From NCBI GenBank assembly GCA_019358835.1, contig JAHHIH010000025.1, positions 1-64,000 on the forward strand: a DNA stretch of 64,000 nt, given 5' to 3'. The number at the start of each line of letters is the position of its first letter. The stretch's first letter is position 1. This DNA is from Tildeniella torsiva UHER 1998/13D (GTDB lineage Bacteria > Cyanobacteriota > Cyanobacteriia > Phormidesmidales > Phormidesmidaceae). The notes under the pieces were generated by a model. That model was not told the DNA's origin, did not search any database, and was given only the letters and a program-made list of their open reading frames with translations. The translations under genes were made by a program, and so were the position numbers. Positions 50,285-57,362 of this stretch are shown one piece after another.

Positions 50285-50902
50285 TTACTGCTTCTGCATC
50301 TCAAAGGTGAATTGACGGTTCTGCCGCTGTGTGAGATTACCTTTAATCTCGCTAGCTCCACAGGTGCCCGACCAGATTTCAAAGTGATCAGGATTGTTTA
50401 ACGTCATCTCAGTTCCTTCAAAGCGTCCAGCAAGGGAGATTTTATTGGGTTCAGTCGCAGACCCTTTTGGCTCAGTGATTTGCTCACCCTTCCATTCACC
50501 CGTATTAGGCTCTACCGTCTTAATGTTCAATGTGCCCTTGTTAACAGGCGTGCCGCTATTGTCAATCGTCTCCCAATTTAGAACTGATCCCTCCCTAAAG
50601 AAGGCCGCACAGCCTATGGGTTGAGGTGCTGGTACAGGAGTTGTTGTGGGTGCCGGTGTAGATGGTTCAGGGCCAGGAGAGCTGGTTTCAGACGGGGTAT
50701 TGAGGGCAAGAATAAGACCGAACACAAGCAGGGCGATACCAATGGGTGCAGCCCACTTTTGCTGGGCGGGCTGCACCTCAATAAAGCCACCCACTTTGGT
50801 AACGAACGTAAGCAGAATAAAGAACAATCCAGCGAAAATTAAAATGGTTGGAATTGGGGTGTCTTCAAGCGCATCAATAATTCTGCCAATGGATTCAGCC
50901 AT
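50285..50902 (-). CDS. Membrane-anchored hypothetical protein
   Basis: 205 residues. Two N-terminal membrane helices (about 17-38 and 50-67), a Pro/Thr/Ser-rich linker (about 70-95) and a C-terminal beta-rich domain with two Cys (GCAAFF, SGTCGAS). The C-terminal part (EGSVLNWETIDNSG, LNIKTVEPNTGEWKGEQI) resembles a small barrel. Unrecognised. It is less GC-rich than its neighbours, which hints at an accessory gene. ATG 50902. Confidence 0.65.
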   Translation of the reverse strand: MAESIGRIIDALEDTPIPTILIFAGLFFILLTFVTKVGGFIEVQPAQQKWAAPIGIALLVFGLILALNTPSETSSPGPEPSTPAPTTTPVPAPQPIGCAAFFREGSVLNWETIDNSGTPVNKGTLNIKTVEPNTGEWKGEQITEPKGSATEPNKISLAGRFEGTEMTLNNPDHFEIWSGTCGASEIKGNLTQRQNRQFTFEMQKQ

Positions 50903-51065
50903 GGTTCTCTTGCCAGATCAGGTGTGCAGAGAAGGCAGGTGAGGAATGCTCGATCTATTGCTGCTACAGGGAAAGTCTCACTATTTACTAGTAAAGCATT
51001 TTGCTCGATGCGATCGCCAAACTGTAAAAAGTTGCAATGGGTCTCATTGCCGATCGCATTTTCGC

Positions 51066-51695
51066 TTACAAAAGAATGAACCCTGCCCGCGCTCCGGCGA
51101 TCGCCGCTTCCGTCCGGCTCGACACATTGAGCTTTGCAAAGATAGCGCTGGTGTGATATTTAATCGTGTGTTCTGACAGGTGCAGACGGCGGGCGATCGC
51201 TTTATTGCTCAACCCTTCCGCCAGCAGGGCCAGCACCTCGACTTCGCGGGGGGTGAGCGCTTCGGATTGGGGTGGCTTGCTCTGGAGCGATCCATTTAGG
51301 GTGAGCAGGCTATCTAGCAAGGTGGGGTGAATGGCCATTAGTCCCGCTGCCGCTGCATCCAGGGCCGCCACAATTTCTGCGCCGCTGGCCTGGCTGGGCA
51401 GCAGCCCGACCCATCCAATCTGCAAGAGTTCTGGGAGATCGACATCGCTCCAGGCGTTGAGCAGGGCCACCACCGGCAGGCCATTGACGAGGTCTAGGTC
51501 GGGTGACCCGTCCCCCATCATGGGCCAGGTGACGAGGGCGCAGTCGGCAGCGTTGTTCCAGGCTCCAGGTTCTCTGGATAGGGTCGGTTGAGCGGTGGCA
51601 TTCATCACCTGCCAGCGGTCGCTTTCGTCGGCAATGATTGCGCTCAACCCCGCCTGGGTAATGGCCGATGGGCTGAGGATCAGCACCCGTTTCAT
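51066..51695 (-). CDS. LuxR-type regulator with degenerate receiver
   Basis: 209 residues. The C-terminal HTH (about 145-209) is a clear LuxR/NarL type: LTPREVEVLALLAEGLSNKAIARRLHLSEHTIKYHTSAIFAKLNV. The N-terminal region has receiver-domain length, but the acidic pair is replaced (ILSPSAIT) and the phospho-accepting Asp position reads ALVTWP, so it probably does not accept phosphate. Its ATG overlaps the protease stop by four bases (ATGA): last gene of a three-gene operon. ATG 51695 is used because the upstream codons lie inside the protease gene. Confidence 0.85.
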   Translation of the reverse strand: MKRVLILSPSAITQAGLSAIIADESDRWQVMNATAQPTLSREPGAWNNAADCALVTWPMMGDGSPDLDLVNGLPVVALLNAWSDVDLPELLQIGWVGLLPSQASGAEIVAALDAAAAGLMAIHPTLLDSLLTLNGSLQSKPPQSEALTPREVEVLALLAEGLSNKAIARRLHLSEHTIKYHTSAIFAKLNVSSRTEAAIAGARAGFILL

Positions 51696-52525
51696 GCCGC
51701 CTGCTCCTGAACGGGTGGACGACCCACCGTGAGGGTACAAATGACCAACTGCCCGCCCTGGCTGACCTGGAGGGCCAGGGTTTGGTCGGGTACCAAACAC
51801 TCTAGCCAATCGGCAAAGGCGTCGGGTTGGCGAAATAGCCGCCCATTGAGGCCGAGGATGCGATCGCCCGCCACCAGACCCGATCGCGCCGCCGGACTGT
51901 CGGACTCCACCCGAGTGACCCTCCATGCCGTTGAGTTGGGGACGGGTTGCGCGGTAATGCCCAGGTAGGGCTGGTCGTGCTGGCTGTTGAGAAATCGCTG
52001 CACCAGGGCGACGGGAATGGCGTAGCCCCGGCCCCCGGCAATCAGCGTATTGATGCCGACGACCTCGCCTACCAGGGTGGCTAGGGGGCCGCCTGAATAG
52101 CCAGGGGCCAGGGCAATATCGGCCTGCACCCAGCGGGGAATGGGCGGTTTGGCCGCCACAATGCCCAGGGATGTGGCCCCTATGCTGCTGTCGGGGTTGC
52201 CCACGGCCATTACCAGTTGCCCCACTCGAAGGGCGATCGCATCGCCAACAGTGGCAGCCTGTAGCTCCCCTGCATTGACCTTTAGAACGGCCAGATCGAG
52301 CCGTTGGCTGTAGCCGACTCGGTGGGCGCTGAGCGACTGACCATCCGCCAGCTCAATGCGGGATTGGCCCTGGGAGACCACGTGGGCGTTGGTGACAATC
52401 AGCCCCGACGTATCCCAAATGACCCCAGAGCCCCGTTCGCCAGCGGGGCCTTGAATAAGCACGGTGGATTGCCTGACGCGATCGGAGATTGCGGCCAAAT
52501 CGTAATTCAGCAGTGGAACACTCAT
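51692..52525 (-). CDS. HtrA-like serine protease with PDZ domain, no signal peptide
   Basis: 277 residues. A trypsin-like S1C domain (about 15-180) with the triad His48 (TNAHVV), Asp77 (RLDLAVL) and Ser144 (GYSGGPL), and one PDZ domain (about 185-270; GLVAGDRILGLNGR). Unlike DegP/DegQ, it has no signal peptide or membrane anchor, so it should act in the cytoplasm. Both ends overlap its operon neighbours by four bases. Its target is unknown. A catalytically dead relative is encoded directly upstream. Confidence 0.88.
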   Translation of the reverse strand: MSVPLLNYDLAAISDRVRQSTVLIQGPAGERGSGVIWDTSGLIVTNAHVVSQGQSRIELADGQSLSAHRVGYSQRLDLAVLKVNAGELQAATVGDAIALRVGQLVMAVGNPDSSIGATSLGIVAAKPPIPRWVQADIALAPGYSGGPLATLVGEVVGINTLIAGGRGYAIPVALVQRFLNSQHDQPYLGITAQPVPNSTAWRVTRVESDSPAARSGLVAGDRILGLNGRLFRQPDAFADWLECLVPDQTLALQVSQGGQLVICTLTVGRPPVQEQAA

Positions 52526-53448
52526 CGCCCACCGCCCTGGGGCTGTTCCCCCACGGTGAGGGTGAGATCGGTGGGCTGGCCGCCCCGCAGCAGGTGCAGC
52601 GAGACGGGCTGACCGATCGCGCCAACATCCAAATGGCCGTAGACCGCCTGGAGATTGCTGACCGCCTGGCCGTTCACCGCCAGCAAAATATCACCCACCA
52701 GCAGGCCCGCCTGTTCCGCTGGCCCGGTGGCATCGACGCTGACGATCAGAAGGCCGACCTCTGCCCCCAGGCTCTGTTGCAGGGTGGCGGGCAGCGCCAC
52801 GGGTTGCAGCCCAACGCCCAGGTAGCCCCGGCTGAGGCTGCCGCGCTCTAGCAGGGTTTTGACGATGCGATCGAGGTTGGCGGTGGGCAGCGTTACCACG
52901 CGGTTGCGCGGGCCGTTGAGGTTCATGCCTAAGACTTCCCCCGCCGTATTCACCAAAGCGCCGCCGAGCAGGTTGGGGTAGAGGTTGACATCGGGGCGAA
53001 TCAGGCGATCGATCGCCCGCCCTTGGGAGCTTTGCCAGGGGCCGCCCAGGTTGCCCACTACCCCCAAACTTGCGCTAACGCCGTAGTCCCACGACTGGCC
53101 GACGGCGAGCACCACGTGGCCCACTTTGAGGTCGGCCCCATCGCTGGTGGCGGGCACGGGCAGGTCGGTACGATCGAGTTGAATAATGGCCAGGTCGAGG
53201 GCGCGATCGCGGGCCGAAACTTCAGCTTCGACCACGTTGCCGTCGGGCAGGGTGAGGGTGAGGCGGCTAGAGCGACCGAGGCCGTAGTCGGCGGTGACAA
53301 TCACCCCCGGCTGCCAGTGAATGCCGCTGTAGGCAAAGCGGCGGTGGCCTTTGACGGCGACGAGGGTAGGGGCGATCGCACCCACTGCATCCGCTAGGCC
53401 AGTGGATAGCGCACTGAGCGCTGTTGAGGTTGCATCGGTAGAGGTCAT
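52522..53448 (-). CDS. Catalytically dead HtrA-like protein with PDZ domain
   Basis: 308 residues, aligned along its length with the protease in the next gene. The Asp of the triad is kept (Asp85, ALDLAII), but the His position reads TADYGLG and the Ser position NLLGGALV (Leu161), so it should not cleave peptide bonds. The PDZ domain (about 205-300) is intact (GLLVGDILLAVNGQ). No signal peptide. It is the first gene of the operon; GGAG lies six bases before ATG 53448. It may regulate, dock to or compete with the active protease. Confidence 0.85.
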   Translation of the reverse strand: MTSTDATSTALSALSTGLADAVGAIAPTLVAVKGHRRFAYSGIHWQPGVIVTADYGLGRSSRLTLTLPDGNVVEAEVSARDRALDLAIIQLDRTDLPVPATSDGADLKVGHVVLAVGQSWDYGVSASLGVVGNLGGPWQSSQGRAIDRLIRPDVNLYPNLLGGALVNTAGEVLGMNLNGPRNRVVTLPTANLDRIVKTLLERGSLSRGYLGVGLQPVALPATLQQSLGAEVGLLIVSVDATGPAEQAGLLVGDILLAVNGQAVSNLQAVYGHLDVGAIGQPVSLHLLRGGQPTDLTLTVGEQPQGGGR

Positions 53449-53634
53449 GCCAGACTCCGGAAGAGGGTGAATGCAAGGTTGCTATCCCCTACGATGCCGC
53501 CGCCGCCGCTGAGTTAACCCCGGATGAATGGGTAGTCTGCCCCCAGACAAATGGGTAGCCTATTCCCTCACATGCCGCGTGGGGTTGGCACTGCCCACCA
53601 CTAACCCAGAGCCAGATTGCTCAATTTTGCCCCT

Positions 53635-55012: not shown

Positions 55013-55182
55013 TTGCGAAGCGGTGAGCAGCTAAAATGAGGTTTTTAATTTTGATATGACAACTATCGGAACTGTCGAAAGCCTATGGTTCTACCCAGTT
55101 AAAAGTATCGCGGCGTGGAAATGCCCGAAATCTTTATGGGATTTTCTGGTATTTACGGCGATCGTTGCTACGTCTTCAAAAG
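55013..55182 (+). repeat. Direct repeat of the MOSC gene start, copy 1
   Basis: These 170 bases match 56522-56692 with scattered differences, including the 40 bases before the start codon. Copy 2 is the intact gene start. The copies bracket the region that contains the membrane protein gene at 55742. Confidence 0.8.
55056..55182 (+). pseudogene. Truncated MOSC gene fragment
   Basis: It begins MTTIGTVESLWFYPVKS, as the intact MOSC gene at 56565 does, but has a one-base deletion near 55109 that shifts the frame, and homology ends at about 55182. It lacks the rest of the protein and cannot be functional. Confidence 0.75.
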
Positions 55183-55741
55183 TGCGATCGCAGATCTCCT
55201 GTGAGTTTCCTTCGTCAACCCACAGGAGAATTTTATTCCCTCACTGTGTTTTGAAAGATGATATCTCCACCAGCTCCCCAATAATTCTATCCAAATGGTT
55301 GCGTCGGTTTTGAATAGGTACTGGCGATTGAGAGTGACAGCAGTGAAGAAATAAGTAGTACCAGCCGCTTTAGCATGACAATATTATATAGAATTTGCCC
55401 ATCAGAAATAGACCTTGAATAGGTAGGTAGGAGTGCTAAGGCTAACGGTAGGTTTTGGGCTTCGCTAACTCAACCCAATCTACTAGCCAGCTAGAATTTT
55501 GTTAAGTGCCGCTCGGCAGTTCAGTAGAGATAGTTACCGCCCCACAAAAAGTCGCTACACTGGAGCGGCACCATAAGGTCTGTTGGGTTGCAAAGGCTAT
55601 CTGCGCCTGGTGAGCTTGGTCGTTATGCCGCAGAGTGATCGAGAGGGACAGTGCTCGAAGTTTATCTGTTGATAACCAAATATGAGTGTTTCGAGGCTGT
55701 CTATGAGATGATGCTCTCAGCTTGCTAGTGGAGCGTCACAA
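55183..55741. other. Intergenic stretch in the AT-rich island
   Basis: About 560 bases with no credible gene. Includes repeat-like short sequences such as TTCGCTAACTCAACCCA, of a type found widely between cyanobacterial genes. Confidence 0.45.
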
Positions 55742-56564: not shown

Positions 56565-57362
56565 ATGACAACTACCGGAACCGTTGAAAGCTTATGGTGC
56601 TACCCAGTTAAAAGCATGCGCGGCGTGGAAATGCCCGAAATCTTTATGGGATTTTCTGGTGTCTACAGCGATCGCTGCTACGCCTTCAAAAGCTCCACCG
56701 CCCGCAAAGGCTTTCCTTATTTAAACGCGAACGTACAGCAACAAATGTTGCAGTACCAGCCGCAATATCGCTATCCAGAACGAGCCTCAAAACCGCCAAA
56801 TTTAATTGAGGCAGCGAGCATAGCACCTGGGGTGACACCGGCTAACAGTGACCCAGAAGACATGATTTTGGACATTGTCACCCCCGCAGGCAAAGTTATC
56901 TCTGTCGATGATTCAGAACTGATACGACTTCTGCGTGAAGGGCTCGACGAAAAGACCCAATTAAAACTTGTGCGCTCAGACCGAGCCTTAACCGACTGTC
57001 GCCCAATCTCGTTAATCAGCCTATCCACCATTCGACAAATTGAATCAGAATGCTCAATTCCTATTGACAAGCGGCGTTTTCGAGCAAACATCTACTTCGA
57101 TTTTGTGTCAGACGAAACCGGATTCGCTGAAGATAGTTTTGTCGGTCGCCGTCTACGAATTGGGTCAACCGCGACGGTCATGGTGCTTGAGCGCGACCCG
57201 CGTTGTCGAATGATTTCGCTCGATCCAGATACAGGTGAGCACAACCCGGAAGTTTCACGCAAAGTTGCCCAGGCCCACAACAACTTCGCTGGACTTTACT
57301 GCGCGGTTTTAGTTGAAGGAGTCTTGAAAAAAGGTGATGCGATCGAGTTGGAAGCGACTTGA
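56565..57362 (+). CDS. MOSC domain protein with N-terminal barrel
   Basis: 265 residues. The N-terminal beta-barrel domain starts GTVESLWCYPVKSMRGVEMPEIFMGFSG (shown in parts: WCYPVKSMRG, FMGFSG), and the MOSC domain (about 120-262) has RFRANIYFD, FVGRRLRIG and the Cys motif LERDPRCRMISLDPDTGE. YcbX-type relatives use molybdenum cofactor for reductions of N-hydroxylated compounds. A truncated copy of its first 40 codons lies 1.5 kb upstream. Confidence 0.85.
   Translation: MTTTGTVESLWCYPVKSMRGVEMPEIFMGFSGVYSDRCYAFKSSTARKGFPYLNANVQQQMLQYQPQYRYPERASKPPNLIEAASIAPGVTPANSDPEDMILDIVTPAGKVISVDDSELIRLLREGLDEKTQLKLVRSDRALTDCRPISLISLSTIRQIESECSIPIDKRRFRANIYFDFVSDETGFAEDSFVGRRLRIGSTATVMVLERDPRCRMISLDPDTGEHNPEVSRKVAQAHNNFAGLYCAVLVEGVLKKGDAIELEAT

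Follow-up and report, generated by a model that had tools for sequence, protein, structure and literature searches.

We here describe a gene module, A-(B)-C, from the cyanobacterium Tildeniella torsiva UHER 1998/13D, where it lies on the minus strand of a 64,000-nucleotide stretch (contig JAHHIH010000025.1, positions 1 to 64,000, hereafter the window) in a genome of 5.8 Mb. The module combines an HtrA-like protein that is often catalytically dead (A), an optional HtrA-like protein with an intact catalytic triad (B) and a LuxR/NarL-type regulator with an aberrant receiver (C), and it is preceded by a two-box element that is nearly confined to the promoter of A. The parts are of known kinds; the arrangement is new and looks autoregulated. 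On balance, we lean towards a self-contained, autoregulated operon in which C binds the element and A serves as a contact sensor for C. The genes and their junctions in the window are as follows:

52522..53448, minus strand: gene A, 308 residues, HtrA-like (Trypsin_2 and PDZ), with Tyr55/Asp85/Leu161 at the triad columns; putative pseudoprotease
51692..52525, minus strand: gene B, 277 residues, HtrA-like (Trypsin_2 and PDZ), with His48/Asp77/Ser144; predicted active protease
51066..51695, minus strand: gene C, 209 residues, LuxR/NarL-type DNA-binding protein with a pseudo-receiver
52522..52525, minus strand: ATGA stop/start overlap of A and B, read from the sequence
51692..51695, minus strand: ATGA stop/start overlap of B and C, read from the sequence

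The length of C is counted from the ATG of the overlap, the longest open reading frame (ORF) in the same frame comprising 286 residues. A preliminary description of this DNA had proposed an operon of three minus-strand genes joined by ATGA at both junctions, and the reading frames at these coordinates confirm it as a real operon.

Across the search set of 388 cyanobacterial genomes of the class, C (counted at E <= 1e-22) and A (by a profile of 42 members at E <= 1e-70) were each detected in 63 genomes, and both in 60. In 60 of the 63 C loci, A precedes C on the same strand, a count that takes in the shortened A of genome G480 and the A cut by a contig end in G612. Contig ends account for the other three C loci, and in G043, one of the three, A and B were recovered at the end of another contig. 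A was recovered with no counted C in three genomes: in G448 a contig end truncates C, in G559 a weaker C is nearby, and G604 has a fusion (described below). C was recovered with no counted A in G059 and G610 (contig ends) and in G480 (where the A match spans residues 11-176 only). The arrangement recurs over 11 family groups of cyanobacteria, and is thus more than a chance association; in total, the module is known from 70 genomes. Homologues of the module's genes are co-located, in line with the linkage proposed from the window.

Examination of the stretches around the C matches and of five further A loci revealed B between A and C in 43 of 63 modules and none in 20 (two fragmentary A rows, L105 and L138, were dropped, as were the B of L132, a different HtrA, and the split B of L146). 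A and C are the constant pair of the module, and B is optional. Overlaps of the ATGA type are common among the modules, with variable spacing. No further gene cluster is widely common in the surrounding DNA (roughly 6 kb upstream and 3 kb downstream, counting ORFs of 90 residues or more), the remaining neighbour matches being antisense shadows of the A, B and C genes and a few scattered matches at differing positions. A strong A match is present in 10 of 26 genomes of the window's genus, so that the module is patchy there; the named relatives found are Nodosilinea, Leptolyngbya-type and one 'Cyanobacteria bacterium' assembly. As a separate observation, B is split into two ORFs in the draft genome G030 (L146:2507-4001), with the A and C frames at full length.

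Protein A displays Trypsin_2 (PF13365, 3.8e-16) and PDZ_2 (2e-12) domains, and a profile of 42 A proteins matches solved DegP-like chains at E 1.6e-64; towards the Do family model TIGR02037 it scores 138.7 bits, below the cut-off of 416.2. In the window's A, the His-Asp-Ser triad is absent, with Tyr55 replacing the His, Asp85 kept and Leu161 replacing the Ser. This loss, already pointed out in the preliminary description, is shared at the His and Ser columns, with identical Tyr and Leu, by all 10 closest relatives, one of them from another genus and one with Glu at the Asp site, which rules out a sequence error as the cause. The converse possibility, that close relatives keep His and Ser, thus does not apply to these 10; many other lineages do retain the triad, which is complete in 26 of 63 A rows. 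At the His/Ser columns, the remaining rows carry Y/L, E/A, E/V, E/G, E/S, D/T, D/S, Q/D, Q/A, H/G, H/F, H/A, H/T or H/E, or else Asn replaces the Asp. The triad of A has been lost repeatedly: on a tree built without the triad columns, a quick tree with weak deep support, the live/dead label, where live means that both His and Ser are kept, switches at least eight times, and the sister rows G503 and G516 differ, one being live and the other having Phe for Ser. The sample is uneven, with 10 of the 37 dead rows originating from the window's genus.

Dead A is nonetheless retained. Within the window's genus its median ratio of nonsynonymous to synonymous substitution is 0.134 (10 sequences, 45 pairs), compared to 0.234 for B (9 sequences, 36 pairs) and 0.186 for C (10 sequences, 45 pairs), as computed from pairwise counts whose pairs are not independent, and purifying selection in this genus is stronger on dead A than on B or on C. 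A dead A stands beside B in the window and in 23 other modules, and 13 of the 63 modules combine a dead A with no B and thus encode no intact triad. Self-made cleavage is therefore not the general mechanism, and the common function of A seems to require no cutting by the module. The PDZ loop GYLG, which has a role in peptide binding, is invariant or nearly so across the 42 A proteins. In the preliminary description, A and B were proposed to sense misfolded or unanchored proteins via their PDZ domains, and the near-invariant loop of A leaves this a possible role.

B carries Trypsin_2 (PF13365, 4e-25) and PDZ_6 (3.7e-9) domains and reaches 161.3 bits towards TIGR02037 (cut-off 416.2). As had been described, it keeps His48, Asp77 and Ser144, and since the triad is intact in 43 of 43 B rows, B is probably an active protease. 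The PDZ domain seems absent from some B proteins, with ORFs of 182-203 residues in L107, L120, L121 and L122. Both proteins had been described as lacking a signal peptide and as acting in the cytoplasm. For B this holds up, a cytoplasmic location being likely from an N-terminal hydropathy of 0.85 (first 80 residues, window) and a maximum of 1.23 over 43 B rows. For A the hydropathy is indecisive: the N-terminus of the window's A reaches 1.55 (19 residues), 8 of 65 A rows exceed 1.6, and four other HtrA-like proteins of the same genome fall at 1.51-2.11. By eye, however, A has no charged stretch before the hydrophobic segment and starts near the protease domain, and it may thus well be cytoplasmic too.

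The possibility that B is supplied from elsewhere in genomes without it was considered and rejected. With the window's B as query, no B-like protein stood out in 21 B-less genomes, the best matches (<= 103 bits) being in the range of A itself, although a distant B may have escaped this search. It hence seems that A-C works without proteolysis of its own.

The regulator C contains a GerE domain (PF00196, 1.4e-21) and gave no Pfam receiver match at E 0.1. Its closest solved sequences or folds are NarL, ChrA, LiaR and VraR; the model of C is of moderate quality, with a mean predicted local distance difference test score (pLDDT) of 62.9, and matches these folds with a best E of 9e-8 and whole-chain template modelling scores of only about 0.35-0.45. 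Aligned with the solved response regulator ChrA, the Asp-Asp pair corresponds to Ser8-Pro9, the phospho-accepting Asp to Thr56 and the Lys to Ser101. Column 8, the first of the acidic pair, is acidic in none of the 64 rows with a letter (67 rows, three gaps), and column 101 is Lys in three of 67. The absence of the phospho-accepting Asp, as claimed earlier, is thereby upheld by Thr56 in the window, and the receiver is abnormal throughout the family. Judged by these residues, C seems to be incompetent for phosphorylation and to act independently of it. When C was compared with plasmids, only 4 of 209 records had one place covering 80% of C, while A compared with phages returned 19 records, with degQ/degS-like annotations where any were given.

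The strongest clue to the function of the module is an element, new here, in front of A. Two conserved direct repeats became apparent on aligning the upstream regions of the genus, and the same element is present in other clades. Its consensus reads CCTAGCCATTTTTCTAGG, as a rule n6-7, CTACCCATTTnTCCGATG, and then a -10-like GGCATTCTG. The corresponding features are:

53476..53558, minus strand: two-box element, putative promoter/operator, matching model R1 at E 6.4e-15
53542..53559, minus strand: box 1, GCTACCCATTTGTCTGGG, from the upstream-region alignment and the site models
53518..53535, minus strand: box 2, CTACCCATTCATCCGGGG, from the upstream-region alignment and the site models
53490..53498, minus strand: -10-like motif, GGCATCGTA, 19 nucleotides after box 2; presumed promoter part
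L235:2022-3032 and L132:1803-2843: HtrA-like genes with intact triad behind extra element sites, in G521 and G598

The match in front of A is the sole one in the window and the sole one in the genome at E <= 0.05; the window's site is itself one of the 58 sites used for R1. With the -10-like motif defined as the best match to GGCATTCTG within 14-23 nucleotides, its distance to box 2 is 19 nucleotides in 48 of 57 sites. When each family was held out in turn, 57 of 63 upstream regions scored above every shuffle (about 200 dinucleotide-based shuffles per family; the null of the position weight matrix scan used plain shuffles). Six regions remained below the null: in L109, L135 and L139 the gene start was misplaced and sites were present once this was corrected, and L087, L092 and L094 seemingly, by eye, have one box only. 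L088 and L138 were left out for too little upstream sequence.

In 51 of the 70 module genomes we ran R1 genome-wide, on many of its own source genomes, and it returned the element in 50, each time with its best match at the A promoter. Second pieces at that promoter aside, only two strong matches were located elsewhere, in G598 and G521. Among 20 relatives without A and C, five had a match at E <= 0.05, strong in a single case; this one, in G032 of the window's genus (L236:3640-3820), is an isolated copy of the element with a remnant of the C helix-turn-helix behind it, where the operon seems to have been deleted. A simple box pattern with up to two mismatches yielded 40 matches genome-wide compared to 42 for a reversed control, and so only the two exact boxes at the A promoter are informative. 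An RNA element rather than a DNA site was rejected, with no pairs found by RNAalifold in the element alignment and one sub-threshold microRNA match inside A from Rfam. As a further observation, the start of box 2 is repeated in L120, by eye, with the complete box 2 about one helical turn further from box 1.

The extra strong sites in G521 and G598 each precede an HtrA gene with an intact triad, the G521 site being placed 38 nucleotides before the Met equivalent to the start of the G598 gene and falling within a longer reading of the ORF. This HtrA type was found in seven of 22 genomes searched, including the query's own, with 61-74% identity in the other six; six of the seven are B-less, numbers too few for a claim. 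In the two B-less genomes whose HtrA gene is preceded by the element, it is possible that this gene partially replaces B in trans. Separately, in G058 a related HtrA-like gene is arranged divergently beside A (L093:3385-4416).

Further loci are informative on the tie between A and C. In G604, an in-frame ORF of 277 residues (L179:2968-3801) joins the A protease domain directly to the C DNA-binding domain; PDZ, B and the pseudo-receiver are gone, His and Ser are present by eye, and the element is still in front. This may fit a close physical tie of A and C. Outside cyanobacteria, A is directly followed by a C-like gene on plasmids of Paraburkholderia sprentiae (WP_027194870.1 and WP_027194871.1) and Bradyrhizobium sp. 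Ash2021 (WP_309185446.1 and WP_309185447.1), the former A having the triad (by eye) and the latter being without His and Ser. A third A homologue, on pBPHY01 of P. phymatum (L246:3920-4839), is distributed over two reading frames, with a single box in front. At the corresponding position, both Paraburkholderia A loci display a single box and a -10-like motif (R1 E 0.0048 and 0.034; 0 of 500 shuffles each), and only one of the loci has C.

Among known systems, the nearest precedent is MamE/MamO, which likewise combines an active HtrA-family protein with a catalytically dead one. To our knowledge, that pair is tied to biomineralisation and has no linked regulator; moreover, in the module here A, dead or live, is constant and the live B optional, and the scores of A or B towards the NCBIfam MamE/MamO models fall well short of the cut-offs. 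The HhoA/HhoB/HtrA (Deg) proteases of cyanobacteria share the trypsin-like and PDZ domains, and A and B match HhoA/HhoB/HtrA and Do-family models, but towards the former with scores of only 110.7 and 126.9 against a cut-off of 450, with no hydrophobic N-terminus in B and no triad in A. In the DegS-RseA-sigmaE pathway, a periplasmic HtrA protease cuts a membrane anti-sigma factor; there too an HtrA-type PDZ protein stands upstream of a transcription factor, whereas here 13 of 63 modules have no intact triad. Finally, NblR and CsgD are similarly receiver-containing regulators without phosphotransfer residues, but C differs in having a constant genetic partner, which could be the missing input. 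A search of the open-licence literature (titles and abstract starts) found, among the matches listed, no described system like A-(B)-C, in agreement with the preliminary description, which knew of none with this layout.

Taken together, we propose that C, as a phosphorylation-independent LuxR/NarL-type regulator, would bind the two-box element, the regulator's putative own site in its own promoter, and set the transcription of its own operon, in either sign. A would be the sensor, a peptide-binding scaffold of protease and PDZ domains that is kept whether or not it is able to cut. Its ligands would be protein ends or damaged protein, as suggested by the HtrA scaffold and the PDZ loop, and A would take the role of a histidine kinase by signalling to C, through direct contact, whether or not a ligand is bound. 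In modules with B, such as that of the window, B would be an active protease whose amount is adjusted by the circuit, and A would probably also modulate B, as MamO does MamE.

Several observations weigh against this proposal. The operon is not always tight, as A and B are separated by 369-531 base pairs in four of the six f7 genomes (L123, L141, L142 and L144). A is intact-looking in 26 of 63 rows, and cutting may hence matter there. At column 9 of C, the second position of the acidic pair, nine of 67 rows have Asp and seven have Glu, and at the phospho-accepting column 56 Asp is found in 16 rows and Glu in 31. The predicted structure of A is poor (mean pLDDT 32.5, from six close sequences and without Met1). 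Since R1 was applied to its own source genomes, the informative part of the scan is the scarcity of other strong sites; nine weak matches were also found elsewhere (E 0.003-0.05) in the 51 genomes, whereas the rough E-values, if they held, would predict about 2.5. Furthermore, the element resides in the operon's own promoter, so its co-occurrence with C is expected in any case, and another factor could be what binds it. Only 2 of 51 genomes have the extra HtrA sites, and the parallel change of the C helix and box 2, detailed below, is a single event. The G604 fusion may represent plain decay. In Bradyrhizobium, C is without most of the pseudo-receiver, which argues against this domain as the sole contact for A, and the box is unconvincing (81 of 500 shuffles for box plus -10, 10 of 500 for the core). 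For P. phymatum, no C was found in the 8.8-kb stretch that contains the A locus.

Alternatively, A could be a non-catalytic activator or subunit of B, in a protease pair for quality control, with C as a passenger that answers another signal without touching A; we regard this as unlikely, yet worth weighing. According to PMC4794232, MamO, with its degenerate site, activates MamE-dependent proteolysis, and magnetosome pseudoproteases arose independently in three groups; the invariably intact triad of B also fits. The constant pair of the module is A and C, however, and B is absent in 20 of 63 modules, 13 of which have a dead A with no partner protease in the operon, so the earlier notion of A and B as a general pair is not supported.

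It must also be considered that the element may instead serve a different regulator of the host or be simply ordinary promoter sequence, with C acting on other genes. The mostly fixed spacing of 19 nucleotides to the -10-like motif indeed suggests that at least part of the element is core promoter. Nevertheless, strong matches placed almost only at the A promoter across 51 genomes are a misfit with a general factor, Paraburkholderia likewise has the box upstream of A, and in the window's genus a variant box 2 accompanies a variant recognition helix of C (KYH compared to KFH), both diverging from other clades. We consequently find this explanation improbable.

No more credible is regulated proteolysis, the version of the preliminary description, in which B or a live A would cleave or degrade C, or free it from A, and thereby change transcription. 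The operon structure with a triad-bearing protease and the DegS-type precedents of HtrA proteases in signalling are in its favor. On the other hand, the 13 modules without any intact triad maintain the same A-C order, and 11 of them keep the element, so that cleavage of the regulator by the module's own proteins is not supported as a general rule; a protease encoded elsewhere may still cleave C. An anti-phage defence module was rejected, as PADLOC returned weak generic matches only (RT-Protease_XI to the protease domains, CARF/CasR to the helix-turn-helix).

Turning to the surroundings in the window, a possible terminator hairpin is located behind C (51034..51050, minus strand), the number of such sites in the region being 6 compared to 3.6 (standard deviation 2.2) in shuffles and so not clearly higher. 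Also behind C, positions 50285-50902 encode a 205-residue protein with a hydrophobic stretch and no Pfam family over the cut-off; a similar ORF is likewise found behind C in L039 (5232-5813). A 731-residue protein with a von Willebrand factor type D domain (PF00094; 47964-50159) is separated from the operon by one gene. On the other side, the start of a short ORF (55056-55313) resembles that of the following 265-residue ORF (56565-57362; MTTxGTVESLWxYPVKS), which we take to be MOSC-like, and the short ORF is perhaps its broken duplicate.

The module bears on two broader questions. The switching of bacterial pseudo-receivers is termed a mystery in PMC12632262. With its constant partner, predicted operator and readout within the operon, C is such a regulator, available from 70 genomes, and makes the switching question directly testable. 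Similarly, A offers naturally occurring proteases that range from live through half-dead to dead in one and the same genetic setting, with which to examine what role a pseudoprotease takes once cutting is lost. It is possible, though we put this forward tentatively, that A-(B)-C represents a third signalling architecture, present in more than one phylum, in which a decaying peptide-binding protease replaces the sensor kinase and switches a pseudo-receiver regulator by contact, with an operator of its own. If so, the repeated death of A would be the record of a protease turning into a receptor over and over again.

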